Below are positions 5,799-13,319 of a DNA stretch of 33,908 nucleotides, piece after piece. The DNA is from Nitrospirota bacterium (lineage in GTDB: Bacteria > Nitrospirota > Thermodesulfovibrionia > Thermodesulfovibrionales > JdFR-85). The translations under genes and the position numbers were made by a program. Each line of letters opens with the position of its first letter. Positions within the stretch are counted from its first letter, which is position 1. Location: NCBI GenBank assembly GCA_013151495.1, contig JAADIE010000003.1, forward strand, positions 1-33,908, in the 5' to 3' direction. The notes under the pieces are model-generated. The model was not told the origin of the DNA, did not search any database, and worked only from the letters and a program-made list of their open reading frames with translations.

Positions 5799-8245
5799 TT
5801 AGTTTACACTTGCAGTAAGATACTCCTGCTCCTTTGCTACCTTAAAGGCAGGAGCACCATCCTGCATTACCACAATTATCTTGTTGGCACCAACAAACCT
5901 GCCTTTCAGGATCTCCTCTGACACAGGTAGTCTTCTATCTCCTTTTGAATGGCCCTTCTCATTGGTCGGGCACCATAGATTGGCTGGTAGTATTTCTCGA
6001 CCAGCCACTCCTTCACCTCATCGGTTACCTCAAGTACAAGTTCCTGCTCAACAAGCTGCTTGTTAGTCTCATCTATTAGCAGGTCAATAATGGAGAACAG
6101 ATGTTCCTTCTCCAGTGGATGAAATACCACAATCTCGTCGATCCTGTTCAGGAACTCCGGATTAAAGGTCTTCTTGAGTTCGTTCATCACATTTTCTTTT
6201 ATCTTCTCATACAGATCCTCTGACTTTGTTCTATGGAAACCAAGTGGAGTGGCCTTTTCAATCAACCTTGCACCAAGATTGGAGGTCATAATTATTACCG
6301 TGTTTTTAAAGTCCACCTTTCGTCCAAAGCTGTCTGTCAGCACACCCTCATCAAGCACCTGAAGCAGTATATTAAATACATCAGGGTGAGCCTTTTCTAT
6401 CTCGTCAAAAAGGATTACAGAGTAAGGTTTCTTTCTCACCTGCTCTGTCAGCTGTCCACCCTCTTCATAACCCACATAGCCTGGAGGCGCACCAGTAAGT
6501 CTTGATACATTGAACCGCTCCATGTACTCAGACATGTCTATCTTGATCAAAGAGTTTTCGTCATCAAAGAGAAACTCGGCCAGGGCCTTCGCCAGTTCTG
6601 TTTTACCAACACCTGTTGGGCCAAGGAACAGGAAGGAACCAATCGGCTTCTTTCTGTTTTTAATACCTGTGCGTGATCTTCTGATAGCCCTGCATACAGC
6701 CTTAATGGCATCGTCCTGTGCAATGATCCTCTTGTGAAGCTCCTCCTCCATATGAAGCAGTTTTTCAGACTCCTCCTGCTCAAGCTTAAGTAGTGGCACA
6801 CCTGTCATCTTCGACACAGTGTATGCAATGTCCTCGGCGCTTATTACCGGTATCTCTTTTGTGAGATTATCACGCCACTGTTTATGCACCTGTTCATGGA
6901 GCTTTCTGAGTTTTTCCTCTTCACCCCTTATAGCTGCAGCCTTTTCAATGTCCTGTAGTTTTATATAAAGGGTTTTTTCCTTTGAAAGCCTGTCAAGCTC
7001 CTGCTCGATCTCTTTGAGTTCATGCGGTGGGGTGTACCTTTTAAGTTTTATCCTCGAGCCGGTCTCATCTATAACATCTATTGCCTTGTCTGGTAGATTA
7101 CGGTCTGCAATATAACGGTCTGAAAGCTTTGCAGCTGCCACAATAGCCTCTTCCGAGTATTTAACCCTGTGATGGGCCTCATACTTTGACTTAAGCCCCT
7201 TTAGAATCTCGATGGTTTCATCCACTGTAGGCGGCTCCACATAGATTGGCTGGAAACGCCTTTCCAGGGCTCCATCCTTTTCAATGTATTTTCTGTACTC
7301 ATCAACAGTTGTTGCACCTATGCACTGGATCTCACCTCTTGAGAGCGCCGGTTTTAGCATATTTGAAGCATCCACTGAGCCCTCAGCAGCACCAGCGCCA
7401 ATCAATGTATGTAACTCATCGATAAAGAGAATTATATTGTCAGACTGGATTATCTCCTTCATGACAACCTTCAGACGTTCCTCAAACTGCCCTCTGTACT
7501 TGGTACCTGCAATCAGTGCACCAAGGTCAAGGGAAACGATCCTCTTACCAAGCATCTGATCGGGCACATCCCCGGCTACTATTCTCTGGGCAAGACCCTC
7601 AACAATGGCAGTCTTGCCAACACCTGGCTCACCAATGATAGCCGGGTTGTTCTTTATCCTTCTTCCCAGTATCTGAAGTACCCTTTCGATTTCTCGCTCA
7701 CGACCAATAACCGGGTCGAGTTTACCCTTCTTTGCAAGGGCAGTAAGGTCTTTTCCGAACTCATCAAGTGCTGGTGTATGGGTCTTACGCTCACGTACAT
7801 GCGGATGGGTCTTCATGGAAAGATTTATTGCAAGCTGTCTTGCACCAAGCAGATTTGCACCATGATTTCTGAGTATCTTACCCCCGATACCCTCGTCTTC
7901 CCTGATTAGACCAAGCAACAGATGCTCGCTGCCGATATAATTGTGCCCAAGCAGCCTGGCCTCTTCAATGGCAAGCTCAAGGACCTTCTTGGCCCTTGGT
8001 GTAAAGGGTATATCGCCAAAGGTTAGCAGATTTGTTGGAGCTGGAAGGTTGCGTTCCACCTCCATCCGGACATCCTCTATTGAAATGCCCATCTTCTTCA
8101 GTATGACTACCGGAAGCCCATCCTGTTCTCTGATAAGTCCAAGCAGAAGATGCTCTGTTCCAAGATAGTCATTTTGCCTTCTCTCAGCCTCTTCTTTGGC
8201 ATATATAATTACCTTTCTTCCTCTTTCTGTAAATTTCTCAAACAT
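5799..8245 (-). CDS. clpC: ATP-dependent Clp protease ATP-binding subunit ClpC, frameshifted near the 3' end
   Basis: AAA+ unfoldase that feeds substrates to ClpP. It has two Clp-N repeats (about 1-145), a first ATPase with Walker A GEPGVGKT (205-212), a short coiled-coil middle region with the UVR-like stretch near 420-460, and a second ATPase with Walker A GPTGVGKT (542-549). L668-G669-F670 is the ClpP-docking loop. The frame stops at 5906 after E-D-Y-L-C-Q-R-R-S. The expected ending (S-E-E-I-L-K-G-R-F to T-A-S-V-N, stop at 5799) continues in another frame. The break falls at a TGTG at 5922-5925; removing one TG restores E-D-Y-L-S-E-E-I-L and a full protein of about 814 residues. It may be a sequencing error, a mutation or recoding. 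The ribosome site is AAGGAG. Confidence 0.9.
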
Positions 8246-8290
8246 ACAATCTCCTTTTTATCAGCAATTTGTTATAGGCTCCTTAATTTC

Positions 8291-8320
8291 ATAATAATTG
8301 TTTTTCAAGCAGGTTGTCAA
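8291..8320 (-). promoter_or_regulatory. clpC promoter
   Basis: On the minus strand, a perfect -35 TTGACA (8315-8320) and a -10 TATTAT (8291-8296) are separated by 18 bp. The predicted start near 8284 gives a leader of about 38 nt with an AAGGAG ribosome site. One arm of an 11-bp inverted repeat overlaps the -35 and spacer. Confidence 0.65.
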
Positions 8321-8355
8321 CTTCAGTAAAAATAAATTTTATAAACAACCTGCTT
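8307..8355. repeat. 11-bp inverted repeat over the clpC -35 region
   Basis: AAGCAGGTTGT at 8307-8317 and its exact complement ACAACCTGCTT at 8345-8355 are separated by 27 bp. The first arm overlaps the clpC -35 and spacer, so it could be an operator. It matches neither CIRCE nor a CtsR site that I recognise. Confidence 0.5.
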
Positions 8356-8397
8356 TATATATTCACCACCTGAAATCAGTAGTATTCAATAAACACG

Positions 8398-8569
8398 ATA
8401 TGAAGGGCTTTCACTTTAAAAACGGAACTTTTGACCCAACTATGGCTCGCTCCGTTCATTTTTTTGAACTCGCTTACGCTCAAACAGCAAAAAAATGCCC
8501 TTTGGGACACTCCGCTCGCCAAGTTGGGTGCCCCAAAATTTCCGTAAAATTTGTTCAAGCCCTTCATAT
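8398..8569. repeat. 172-bp long imperfect palindrome (MITE-like element)
   Basis: The ends are a perfect 13-bp terminal inverted repeat, ATATGAAGGGCTT (8398-8410) and its complement (8557-8569). Inside, the arms stay alignable: ACGGAA against TTCCGT, CCCAACT against AGTTGGG, and an inner perfect 10-bp pair CATTTTTTTG (8457-8466) with CAAAAAAATG (8488-8497). The whole unit can fold into one long hairpin. Its GC-rich core (GCTCGCTCCG, CTCGCTTACGCTC, CTCCGCTCGCC) differs from the AT-rich flanks. The TGAAGGGC ends abut TA on both sides, as in TA-targeting elements. No real gene is present inside. Confidence 0.7.
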
Positions 8570-8677
8570 AAATTATTTATTCAAAATCTATACCAGAACC
8601 TTAATCATTAATATAAGAATGTCAATCGCCTAAAAAACAGAAAATCATCTCCTGATTTAAGTTAAAATATATATATA

Positions 8678-8708
8678 TTGACGAAAATTTTCATCGGGAG
8701 TCGATAAT
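8678..8708 (+). promoter_or_regulatory. clpS-clpA promoter (near-leaderless)
   Basis: TTGACG (8678-8683) and GATAAT (8703-8708), separated by 19 bp, are each one base off consensus. The -10 ends only 5 nt before the clpS ATG, so transcription would start at about the start codon. A GGGAG 13 nt before the ATG is too far to be a good ribosome site. Confidence 0.5.
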
Positions 8709-8713
8709 TTGTC

Positions 8714-9031
8714 ATGGCAGATTTTCCTTTTACAGAAACAGTAAAAGAGCCAAAGACCAGAACTAAAAAGAAAACTAAAAGACCGCCCTTATACAGGGTG
8801 TATCTACTTAACGACGATTACACCACCATGGATTTTGTGGTCTTTGTTTTGCAGGAGGTCTTTAATAAGCCCTATGAAGAGGCTGTGCAGATAATGCTTC
8901 ATGTTCATCGAAGCGGCATGGGGCTATGTGGAGTATATACAAAAGAGATCGCTGAAACAAAGGTGGAAACCGTTCATCGGCTGGCAAGGGCCAATCAGTT
9001 TCCACTTAAATGCAGAATGGAGAGGGAATAA
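8714..9031 (+). CDS. clpS: ATP-dependent Clp protease adaptor ClpS
   Basis: 105-residue adaptor that binds destabilising N-terminal residues (N-degrons) and hands substrates to ClpA for degradation by ClpP. After a lysine-rich flexible N-terminus of about 24 residues comes the ClpS fold. N33 and D34 (in [12 protein letters not shown]) and H65 (in M-L-H-V-H) are the residues that hold the substrate's free amino group. The ATG at 8714 is the first possible start after a stop at 8705. The clpA gene begins 3 nt downstream, so the two are one operon. Aat, the enzyme that creates N-degrons, is encoded about 3.6 kb further on. Confidence 0.95.
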
Positions 9032-9034
9032 AGG

Positions 9035-11287
9035 ATGTTAAACAGGGAAATTGAATCCTCCATCCAGAGGATAATAAACAGGGCAAGACAAAAGGGTCAT
9101 GAGTATGTAACCGTAGAACACCTGCTTTATGCAATACTGGAGGACGAATGGGGCAGTGAGATCCTTTATCACTGCGGGGCAGACCTGGATTACCTCAAGG
9201 AATCGCTTAATGAATACTTTGACAAATACATTCCAACAAAGGCACTTCGTACAAATGAACAGCCCCAACCCACGATTGCATTCCAGCGAGTACTGTCAAG
9301 GGCCATAGATCATGTAAGGGCTGCAGAAAAACAGGAGGCCGATGCAGGCGACCTGCTTGCAGCCATGTTCTACGAAGAAGATTCCTATGCTGTGGAGCTT
9401 TTGCAATCTGAGGGTATTAGCAGACTTGATGTGTTAGAGTTCATTTCCCATGGTGTATCCAAAAGGGATGAAGATTTTGAAGACGACTACGATGAAGAGG
9501 AGGAGCCCCATCCATCACATAGGCGTAACAGAAAAAAGGCAGACCCTCTGGAGCTTTACACAACTGAATTAGTAGATAAGGCTCGAAGAGGTGAGATAGA
9601 CCCACTGGTAGGACGACAGAATGAATTAAAGAGAACCATCCAGATTCTTGCCAGAAGGCGTAAAAACAATGTTGTCTTTGTAGGAGAGGCAGGTGTAGGA
9701 AAAACCGCCTTAGTCGAGGGACTTGCCCTAAAAATAGCCAAAGGTGAGGTGCCAGAAATATTAAAGAATGCTAAGATCTATGCCATTGACCTGGGTGGTA
9801 TGATTGCGGGCACCAAATACCGTGGTGAGTTCGAGGCCCGATTGAAGGCCACCATTAAAAGGCTTGAAGAGATTGAAGGGGCAATCATGTTCATAGATGA
9901 AATCCACACAGTAGTGGGAGCTGGAGCAACAAGCGGGGGCTCGCTTGATGCATCCAACATTCTTAAACCCTTCCTTGTCTCAGGCAAACTAAGATGCATT
10001 GGAGCAAGCACCTACGAGGAATACAAAAAATACTTTGAAAAAGACAAGGCCCTTTCACGCCGGTTTCAGAAGGTTGAGCTTCAGGAGCCTTCAGTGGAGG
10101 AGACCGTAAAGATACTTAAGGGGTTAAAAAACTACTACGAAGAATTTCACGGTGTTCGTTATACAGAAGGAGCCCTGAGGGCAGCAGCAGAGCTTTCAGC
10201 CAAGTACATTAACGACAAGTTTCTCCCGGACAAGGCAATAGATGTAATTGATGAGGCTGGTGCTGAGGTAAAACTACACTCAGTAAAAAAGACCGTTGGT
10301 GTAAGGGATATCGAAAATATAGTTTCAAGGATAGCACGTATCCCGGCACGTTCGGTATCCACCTCTGATACAGAGCGGTTACAGAGGCTTGAAGAAGACC
10401 TTAAGTCAGTGGTATTTGGACAGGACGAGGCCATTCACAACCTGGTTTCCTCAATAAAGAGGGCAAGGGCTGGCCTTGGACATCCTGACAAACCTATTGG
10501 TTCCTTTTTGTTTACAGGCCCAACAGGAGTTGGCAAAACCGAGGTTGCCCGCCAGCTGGCCAATACACTTGGTGTGAAGTTCATAAGGTTCGATATGAGT
10601 GAATACATGGAAAAGCACTCAGTTGCCCGATTAATAGGAGCACCGCCTGGATATGTTGGCTTTGATCAGGGTGGGCTACTGACCGATGCCATCAGGCGTA
10701 ACCCCTATGCAGTGTTGTTGCTTGATGAGATAGAAAAGGCCCATCCAGATGTGTTTAATATACTGCTTCAGGTAATGGATTATGCCTCTTTAACTGACAA
10801 CAATGGCAAGAAGGCTGACTTCCGAAATGTGATACTAATAATGACATCCAACGCCGGAGCCCGCGAGATGCAGCAAAGCCCTATCGGGTTTGGCAATCGT
10901 ACCCAGGATGCCCTCTCAAAATCTCAGGAGGCCATAAACCGTCTGTTCAGCCCGGAGTTCCGAAACCGTCTTGATGCGATAATCACCTTTAAGCCACTGA
11001 CACACGACATCATGCTCCATGTGGTTGATAAATTCATCAGGGAACTCCAGGAACAGCTAAGACCTAAAAAAGTAAAAATCCAGCTAAGCAAAGAGGCTCG
11101 AGACTATCTTGCCCGCAAGGGTTTTGATCCTCGTTTTGGTGCCCGACCACTTTCAAGGGTTATTCAGCAGGAGATTAAAGACAGACTTTCTGATGAAATA
11201 CTGTTTGGAACACTTAAAAGAGGTGGTCTGGTCAGGATAGATTGCCAGGATGACAGGCTTAGTTTCAGTTTTAGTTCAGATCACTGA
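9035..11287 (+). CDS. clpA: ATP-dependent Clp protease ATP-binding subunit ClpA
   Basis: 750-residue two-ATPase unfoldase for ClpP, partnered with ClpS. It has a Clp-N domain (about 1-145), an acidic linker (D-E-D-F-E-D-D-Y-D-E-E-E), a first AAA+ domain with Walker A GEAGVGKT (217-224), and a second with GPTGVGKT (495-502) and the MSEYME and GAPPGYVG segments. The ClpP-docking loop is I617-G618-F619. It lacks the long middle coiled coil of ClpB, which fits a protease partner rather than a disaggregase. It starts 3 nt after clpS. Its stop overlaps the opposing SPOR/TPR gene by 7 nt. No clpP is in the window. Confidence 0.95.
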   Translation: MLNREIESSIQRIINRARQKGHEYVTVEHLLYAILEDEWGSEILYHCGADLDYLKESLNEYFDKYIPTKALRTNEQPQPTIAFQRVLSRAIDHVRAAEKQEADAGDLLAAMFYEEDSYAVELLQSEGISRLDVLEFISHGVSKRDEDFEDDYDEEEEPHPSHRRNRKKADPLELYTTELVDKARRGEIDPLVGRQNELKRTIQILARRRKNNVVFVGEAGVGKTALVEGLALKIAKGEVPEILKNAKIYAIDLGGMIAGTKYRGEFEARLKATIKRLEEIEGAIMFIDEIHTVVGAGATSGGSLDASNILKPFLVSGKLRCIGASTYEEYKKYFEKDKALSRRFQKVELQEPSVEETVKILKGLKNYYEEFHGVRYTEGALRAAAELSAKYINDKFLPDKAIDVIDEAGAEVKLHSVKKTVGVRDIENIVSRIARIPARSVSTSDTERLQRLEEDLKSVVFGQDEAIHNLVSSIKRARAGLGHPDKPIGSFLFTGPTGVGKTEVARQLANTLGVKFIRFDMSEYMEKHSVARLIGAPPGYVGFDQGGLLTDAIRRNPYAVLLLDEIEKAHPDVFNILLQVMDYASLTDNNGKKADFRNVILIMTSNAGAREMQQSPIGFGNRTQDALSKSQEAINRLFSPEFRNRLDAIITFKPLTHDIMLHVVDKFIRELQEQLRPKKVKIQLSKEARDYLARKGFDPRFGARPLSRVIQQEIKDRLSDEILFGTLKRGGLVRIDCQDDRLSFSFSSDH

Positions 11288-12558
11288 GGGGTGCCAGTAA
11301 TGTTAAGCCCTGAATCTATTAGATCACGTAGTCTCTTTGCGGCAACAGGGTCCAGTTCCAGTAAACGCCTGTATATCTCCTCAGCAAGGTCTTTTCGATC
11401 AATACTAACATACACAGTGCCAAGCCCTTCCAGGGCATCCACATTGTCTGGATCAATTTCAAGGGCCTTCTGAAAGGCCTCAATAGACTCCTGGGCCCTC
11501 TGGATATATATATTAAGCAGGCTATAACCAAGCCCTGAGTGGTATTCACTTACATCAGGGGAAAGCTCTATGGCCTTTTTGTACTGCCTGTAGGCACTCT
11601 TTGCAAAGCCCATGTTAAGTAATGTTTCGCCATACAGGGCATGGATCTCCGGGTTTTCAGGCCAGCGTTTCACTGCCTCGCGTAGAAGCCTTGCTGCCTC
11701 ACCAAAATCCTCATTCTCCAGCCTTTCCTCCACATCCGATATAAACAACTCTATTTCCTCTTCCTGTCGCCTGAGGCCTTCGGCATCCTCAACACCCTCG
11801 CCCACCCTGGTATCTGCATAACTGAAGACCACCTTTTCTTTGCTGTATCTGCTTTGAACCACCACTCCTTTGAGTGAGGCCCTGGAGGCTAAAAACTCCT
11901 CCGCATCTTTATAGGTATTGAAAATGCCAATCCTCAGGCTGTAATTCATTCCATGCCTTTCTATCCTGAGGCTATCAAGCATCTCTTTACCCAGTTGCTC
12001 TGAAATTGCCTTTAATTCATTGATTGCCTCTTTGAGTCTACTGTAGGTGCCAACCTCAATGGTATAGATCACCCGGGGTGTTTCCTTTTTCAATGTGGCC
12101 TCTTTAACATCCTTTTTAGTCTTTTCCTTTCTGGCCTTCTCTGTTTTTCCTTCTGAGCTCTTCTTTTTAGCCTCTTTCTGAGTCCTTTCATTGTTTACAT
12201 AGGAGGCCACAACCTCAAGCCCTTCATTCTGTTTTATCTTTAACACAAAGGCATCAGAAATCAGGGTCTTAACCTTAGCAAGCACCTCCTTTGCCTCTTT
12301 AAACTCTTTAAACCAACCAAGCCTGATTACCAGGTATTTATTGCCTTTAAGTAGCCTTACTGGCAGAGCATTCTTTTGGGCAAATTCCTTTTTAATAAAA
12401 TCATAATGTCTGCGAGCATATCTCTGTGCTGTCAGCGAGTAGGTAGCGGTCTGGATACTGTAGTGGATAGCCTTACCTTCAGGGGTATCCCCTGCGTAAA
12501 GAGGCGTAAGTGTCAGGAAAATTATTATAATTATAACGAGGGGCCTTAAAAATCCCAT
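11281..12558 (-). CDS. Exported SPOR-domain and TPR-repeat protein
   Basis: 425-residue protein with a signal peptide or N-terminal anchor (about residues 1-22, very isoleucine-rich). Two SPOR-like regions (about 28-112 and 162-240, the second starting I-Y-T-I-E-V-G-T-Y) flank a lysine- and glutamate-rich linker (about 115-160). A C-terminal block of TPR repeats (about 265-415) contains the W-P-E-N-P-E-I-H and D-P-D-N-V-D-A-L units. SPOR domains bind denuded peptidoglycan at division sites and TPRs bind proteins, so a septal or envelope scaffold is likely. The specific role is unknown. There is no Shine-Dalgarno; an extended -10 lies 6 nt before the ATG. It is divergent from aat and convergent with clpA. 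Confidence 0.82.
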   Translation of the reverse strand: MGFLRPLVIIIIIFLTLTPLYAGDTPEGKAIHYSIQTATYSLTAQRYARRHYDFIKKEFAQKNALPVRLLKGNKYLVIRLGWFKEFKEAKEVLAKVKTLISDAFVLKIKQNEGLEVVASYVNNERTQKEAKKKSSEGKTEKARKEKTKKDVKEATLKKETPRVIYTIEVGTYSRLKEAINELKAISEQLGKEMLDSLRIERHGMNYSLRIGIFNTYKDAEEFLASRASLKGVVVQSRYSKEKVVFSYADTRVGEGVEDAEGLRRQEEEIELFISDVEERLENEDFGEAARLLREAVKRWPENPEIHALYGETLLNMGFAKSAYRQYKKAIELSPDVSEYHSGLGYSLLNIYIQRAQESIEAFQKALEIDPDNVDALEGLGTVYVSIDRKDLAEEIYRRLLELDPVAAKRLRDLIDSGLNITGTPQ

Positions 12559-12564
12559 GAAGTG

Positions 12565-12573
12565 ATTATATCA
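12565..12573 (-). promoter_or_regulatory. Extended -10 promoter of the SPOR/TPR gene (leaderless)
   Basis: Minus-strand TGATATAAT (a TGn extension plus perfect TATAAT) is followed by exactly 6 nt and then the ATG, placing the predicted +1 on the A of the start codon. The -35 candidate TTTATG at 17 bp is weak, as is usual for extended -10 promoters. Confidence 0.6.
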
Positions 12574-12605
12574 AATAAGGACGGTTTCATAAAGAACCAC
12601 AAAAG

Positions 12606-13319
12606 ATGCCTGTTTTTCTGTTGTCAAAGGAGCTTGTTTTTCCACCACCAGAGTATGCCGAGTACGACGGTCTCCTTGCTGTCGGTGGAGACCTGAGCCC
12701 AGAGAGGCTTTTGCTTGCATACAGAATGGGAATATTTCCATGGTTTACAGAGGATACCGAGATACTCTGGTGGTCGCCAGACCCAAGGCTTGTGCTTTTT
12801 CCTGATGAGCTTAAGGTATCAAGAAGCCTTAGACAGTTCATCAAAAAAAATCTCTACCGGATCACTCTTGACAGGGCCTTTGAGGATGTGATTAAAGCCT
12901 GTGCCAGAGTACATAGTGAAAAGGATGGGAGCACCTGGATCACCCCCTCAATGATAGATGCCTATATCAGGCTTCATGAGATGGGCTATGCCCATTCGGT
13001 GGAGGCCTGGTATGGTGACGAGCTGGTTGGAGGGCTGTACGGGGTATCCCTTGGAAAGGCCTTTTTTGGGGAGTCCATGTTTACCAGAAGGGATAATGCC
13101 TCAAAGGTGGCCTTTGTCTTTCTGGTGCATCAGCTGAAAAGATGGGGTTATGATCTCATAGATTGTCAGGTTAGTACCCAGCACCTTAAACGGTTTGGGG
13201 CACGAGAGATACCCCGTAGGAAATTCCTCAGTCTGCTTGAGCGCTCTCTCAGATGGGAAACCAGAAAGGGGAAATGGACCATGGAGGTCTCAGAAGTTGA
13301 AGTTCTTCAGAAAATCTAA
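12606..13319 (+). CDS. aat: Leucyl/phenylalanyl-tRNA--protein transferase
   Basis: 237-residue cytoplasmic enzyme that moves Leu or Phe from aminoacyl-tRNA onto proteins beginning with Lys or Arg, making N-degrons for ClpS/ClpA. It is recognised by the N-terminal [10 protein letters not shown] and Y-R-M-G-I-F-P-W segments, the [10 protein letters not shown] motif, the [18 protein letters not shown] core and the N-A-S-K-V-A helix. Length is normal. The ribosome site is weak: AAGGACGG lies 22 nt upstream. The C-terminus overlaps the opposing hisS stop by 30 nt. Proximity to clpS and clpA supports a functional N-degron pathway. Confidence 0.95.

Follow-up and report, generated by a model that had tools for sequence, protein, structure and literature searches.

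The 172-bp palindrome between clpC and clpS in this Nitrospirota genome is a dispersed repeat and not a local structure. It is probably a decayed, non-autonomous MITE-like element, of a kind that in this bacterial family (f1) most likely relied on an IS4-type transposase acting in trans, and that carries a conserved minus-strand hairpin with which a putative factor may interact. The element is repeated, has inserted as a unit in relatives and strongly conserves its fold, and its f1 copies have IS4-like ends and 9-bp duplications.

Structure and extent of the element

In the window, the whole stretch of 33,908 nucleotides analysed here, the palindrome is bounded on the + strand by a left arm, ATATGAAGGGCTT (8398-8410), and a right arm, AAGCCCTTCATAT (8557-8569), which are the perfect 13-bp inverted repeats that a first-pass annotation of this DNA had recognised. 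Between the arms lie a long core helix, in which ACGGAACTTTTG (8422-8433) pairs with CAAAATTTCCGT (8534-8545) and displays covariation, a second core helix formed by CCCAACTATGGC (8435-8446) and GCCAAGTTGGG (8518-8528), and an apical stem, in which CATTTTTTTG (8457-8466) pairs with CAAAAAAATG (8488-8497) and both sides have changed in most family pairs. This apical stem is the inner perfect 10-bp pair of the earlier annotation, and its view that all these parts make one long hairpin is also upheld by the folding energies. The + strand folded as RNA has a minimum free energy of -62.5 kcal/mol (z -7.8), compared to a mean of -33.3 kcal/mol for 200 dinucleotide shuffles, none of which was as stable as the element; for the minus strand, folded as DNA, z is -6.3.

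The palindrome at 8398-8569 is thus sound, but it is not the entire element as had been proposed. Because the flanks past the arms align with copies from two other genomes (G002 and G011), the element is longer, reaching from about 8377 to about 8604. This probable total span (8377-8604, with no strand assigned) was obtained by aligning the outer ends of the decayed copy with loci L003, L004, L020, L024 and L027; the family model itself reports one copy in the window at 8399-8570 with an E of 1e-42, the window copy being among the sequences from which that model was built. On the + strand the left outer extension at 8377-8397 (CAGTAGTATTCAATAAACACG), which aligns with L027, L004 and L003, is a remnant of an IS4-like end starting with CAGTAGTGTCCG, and its CAGTAGT terminus is still recognisable. 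The right outer extension at 8570-8604 is strongly degenerate (TACCAGAAC for TACCGGACA), aligns weakly and gives an approximate limit; no target duplication is recognisable in the outer-end alignment of the window copy. Given that the left end can be aligned while most of the right end and a clear duplication have been lost, we infer an old insertion event for the window copy.

Distribution and insertion sites

A plain DNA search recovered a second copy in the same genome and matches in relatives. A covariance model built on eight copies (R1), for which scoring was limited to nine candidates per genome, detected matches in at least 39 of the 296 genomes of Nitrospirota. With a broader model, the copies that the first-pass annotation had proposed to look for amount to three in the window organism's own genome (G000) and to as many as 33 in relatives within the phylum (33 in G058, 25 in G130, 19 in G277, 17 in G029, 16 in G189 and 12 in G023), with none in G005. 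An exact-pattern scan of GTDB genomes had as its sole match the organism of genome G002, Nitrospirae isolate S139_46. Searches of plasmid, phage and IMG/VR sequences returned no match to the element, and therefore no phage or plasmid carrier is seen.

Genera g16 and g21 both contain sites that are filled in one species and empty in others. In a congener (G001) the element is missing from between clpC and clpS, where the intergenic sequence has diverged too far to be aligned and to mark the exact insertion point. The single copy conserved at one place across relatives, which would signal a local structure, was looked for and not found. The earlier suggestion of a non-autonomous mobile repeat is instead supported by the dispersed copies, the lack of the element in G001, the empty orthologous sites and a transposase with f1-like ends (see below).

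It is accordingly very improbable that the palindrome originated in the divergent clpC-clpS promoter region as a local cis-regulatory RNA or cruciform. Its location, with the start codon of a divergently transcribed gene about 150 bp away on either side, would suit such a role, but copies adjoin many unrelated genes in intergenic regions, the same place is vacant in G001, and an Rfam scan of the window and 15 divergent loci gave no match to any curated covariance model over the elements. The element may exert a secondary effect on the expression of clpC or clpS, which is a matter separate from the origin of the sequence.

We also noted that one and the same intergenic region can harbour different subfamilies from species to species, both upstream of rplU (L236 and L256) and upstream of pfkA (L207 and L234), which suggests insertion hot spots or the replacement of one copy by another. 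At L119:11547-11873 (G216) two full elements are arranged head-to-tail with two bases between them.

IS4-type ends and target duplications in family f1

The best-preserved f1 copies are MITEs. Copies L003 and L004 reach past the arms to CAGTAGTGTCCG ends, and are flanked by 9-bp target duplications: ATGTTACTT at L004 (9/9) and TCTGATCCY with one mismatch at L003 (8/9). A second MITE family in G005 (L137, L140, L143 and L148) has the same CAGTAGTGTCCGG left end with another palindromic interior, and its duplications are ATAGCGGTA at L140, ATCAACGGG at L143 and ATGTAGATA at L148, each 9/9, with 8/9 at L137. The ends of L003, L004 and these G005 MITEs match those of a complete IS4-type insertion sequence of 1273 bp at L304 (G358), from the same order as the window organism. 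Its left end, CAGTAGTGTCCGG, is the same as that of f1, its right end, CCGGACAGCAATG, is similar to that of f1, it is bounded by the 9-bp duplication ATATTGAAT, and its protein matches DDE_Tnp_1 and DUF4372. The window copy shares the IS4-type end only in the form of its decayed left end.

These duplications speak against the mode of insertion that had been proposed, in which the TA dinucleotides flanking the palindrome were read as a target duplication, and with it the lead towards a Tc1/mariner or IS630-type MITE. The TA is not the target duplication because well-preserved copies carry 9-bp duplications and the TA lies inside the palindrome, where it recurs in the G002 and G011 copies. Empty orthologous sites do exist, as had been anticipated. 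The transposase with matching ends that had been expected is present in L304, whose ends resemble those of f1, but no relative of the IS4-type transposase was found in the organism's own genome; the one in G002 has an internal stop codon. With no match to the autonomous IS in G000, membership of the IS4-type MITEs becomes less likely for the window copy but stays plausible, as old MITEs often outlive their IS.

The transposase link does not cover the whole family, since these IS4 ends were not seen in most copies outside f1; no clean target duplication was found outside f1 either. At L301 (G059) a GTAGTGTCCGGTAA end is followed directly on its inner side by a fragment of a transposase-like ORF (DDE_Tnp_1; by eye ISAs1-like), so similar ends may serve more than one group of transposases. 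Pairs of g16 copies 1.5-2.7 kb apart were considered as a candidate autonomous element and rejected, as housekeeping genes (argH, a lipoprotein gene and an EF-G-like gene) and no transposase lie between them. The interior of the second G005 MITE family again displays TGAGCG and GACGAA halves, and is possibly a distant relative of the hairpin.

A conserved hairpin with tandem G-A junctions

The first-pass annotation overlooked a hairpin architecture that is common to the Nitrospirota copies. The same core is found in copies with unrelated yet self-complementary outer arms (e.g. TATGAAGGGC, CAGAGGATGTC and AAGAGATGG). In an alignment of 78 copies, standard pairs occupy 91.5% of 3523 paired cells as against 64% upon shuffling, and in 46 of 48 pairs both sides have changed. 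RNAalifold applied to the same alignment recovers a very similar structure, with both-side changes in 45 of its 46 pairs. As this alignment was fitted to the model, the absolute pairing values lean towards the model, but slid controls are only 31-43% paired.

The helices are joined at three junctions by TC/TC on the + strand, which corresponds to GA/GA, i.e. tandem G-A, on the complementary strand. All three are present in the window, with one half of each on the minus strand at 8411-8412 (partner 8555-8556; conserved in 68 of 78 copies), 8447-8448 (partner 8516-8517; 49 of 78) and, below the apical hairpin, 8470-8471 (partner 8480-8481; 72 of 78). These GA/GA sites lie in a Py-GA-Pu context, in which stable tandem sheared G-A pairs form. 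The repeated CTCGCT words previously reported from the core are indeed present in the window element, and recur (as AGCGAG/CTCGCT) because they are halves of these junctions. A conserved shape with freely changing sequence indicates selection on a folded single strand; it is the shape of the hairpin and not its exact sequence that is preserved in dozens of Nitrospirota copies.

In family f23 we observed the apical hairpin by itself, 42-44 nt in length (L046:1291-1332 and L042:1377-1420), about 80-170 bp from a full element and laid out as stem, AAACTCG, small hairpin, TTAGACAG or CTCAGACAG, and stem. Such a lone hairpin may serve as a building block; no further clear examples emerged when we scanned for apical hairpins on their own.

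Strand asymmetry of the fold

Helix mismatches, counted in the window + orientation, are strongly uneven: A-C 128, G-T 42, C-T 79 and G-A 15, where A-C and C-T on the + strand are G-T and G-A on the other. Four clades all share the direction of this bias. In 75 of 78 copies it is the complementary strand that folds better, under RNA and DNA parameters alike (these strand counts are given without a P value because the sequences are related). Both the mismatch spectrum and the folding energies suggest that selection acts on this complementary strand, the minus strand of the window.

The asymmetry also bears on whether the pairing is maintained chiefly by the repair of imperfect palindromes through template switching, and not by selection on the fold. 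The arms of apparent orthologues can differ and nevertheless be palindromic on both sides (the L210 site, G058 versus G313), as such repair would predict. However, the asymmetric tandem G-A junctions persist uncorrected, and the strand-specific bias in the four clades includes transversion mismatches, while repair would be symmetric. We consider this mechanism improbable as the main cause, though part of the covariation could derive from template-switch repair of palindromes, which would not favour one strand.

In copies situated between tandem genes (n=29; ORF-only gene calls, with a few orthologous pairs included), the + orientation is sense to the genes in 23 and opposite in 6, such that the best-folding strand is usually antisense to the surrounding transcript. 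This placement fits a hairpin that acts in single-stranded DNA, or one that is tolerated only outside mRNA. The scarcity of G-U pairs is not diagnostic of a DNA-level structure, as 22 tRNA acceptor stems are similar (4 of 154 pairs).

Mode of dispersal and comparison with known elements

In f1, an IS4-type DDE transposase recognising the CAGTAGTGTCCG ends most likely moved the element in trans and generated the 9-bp target duplications, which are seen in the well-preserved copies of relatives and would once have flanked the window copy too. Between these ends lies the conserved single-strand hairpin, whose helices meet at tandem G-A junctions on the complement of the window + strand, and hairpin copies with other arms are dispersed over the intergenic regions of Nitrospirota genomes. 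The minus-strand hairpin, as DNA (or RNA), may be recognised by a putative factor that aids the spread or survival of the element. More tentatively, these elements might constitute a Nitrospirota-wide mobile class, the defining feature of which would be a conserved single-strand hairpin that has tandem G-A junctions at three places, is recognised on one strand by a putative host or element protein and can be carried in different transposon ends.

An alternative is that the structured core is itself mobile via a putative single-strand hairpin recombinase or transposase, with the IS4 ends of f1 being acquired later or belonging to a MITE that hosts the core. The shared core within unrelated outer arms, the spread of the family across the phylum without IS4 ends, the apparent one-strand selection and the different subfamilies at the same spots upstream of rplU and pfkA are all in its favour. 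We nevertheless hold it to be rather unlikely, as no common neighbour gene was evident at the loci examined, the Y1 transposase domain is missing from several element-rich genomes, and copies outside f1 lack a clean target duplication.

The Y1 domain is also pertinent to large REP or REPIN-type elements moved by RAYT (the Y1 tyrosine transposase), to which the palindromic, intergenic and high-copy nature of our elements and the apparent one-strand selection bear a resemblance. RAYT was rejected as the mover, since PF01797 was not found in eight genomes (G000, G001, G058 with its 33 copies, G040, G192, G216, G125 and G023). The elements are 160-250 bp long against 20-40 bp for REPs, and the GTAG or CGTC end tags described for such palindromes (PMC3733652) were not seen in the copies by eye, leaving this origin extremely improbable. 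The CGTC-tagged group is likewise without a dedicated transposase (PMC3733652), which is a further similarity to the elements described here.

Like ERIC/RU and other long-hairpin MITEs (PMC2759123, PMC2229807), these are palindromic mobile repeats of 100-250 bp, but here one fold persists throughout the phylum despite a nearly total turnover of the stem sequence. Searches of open-access papers yielded no description of the family. The f1 elements share with IS4-derived MITEs the matching ends, the 9-bp target duplications, a non-coding and intergenic nature and a related autonomous IS in the same order. Bacterial MITEs are usually regarded as short-lived IS remnants; the interior here is unlike an IS deletion remnant in being a conserved structured hairpin common to elements with other ends. 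The f1 elements work like MITEs and have most of their features; what is unusual is the conserved hairpin that they share with elements of other ends. Integron attC sites offer a parallel, being imperfect hairpins whose conserved unpaired features allow their recognition on one strand, but no arrays or cassettes were seen in the loci read. Retention of the hairpin across the phylum despite stem turnover, along with signs of strand-specific selection, would imply a recognition step without an earlier description, and the hairpin could be used directly as bait in a search for this putative step.

As for the genomic setting of the window copy, ORF translations read by eye at 5906-13319 include clpC divergent from clpS, a second, clpA-like Clp ATPase and an aat-like leucyl/phenylalanyl-tRNA transferase, i.e. 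a cluster of bacterial N-degron genes.
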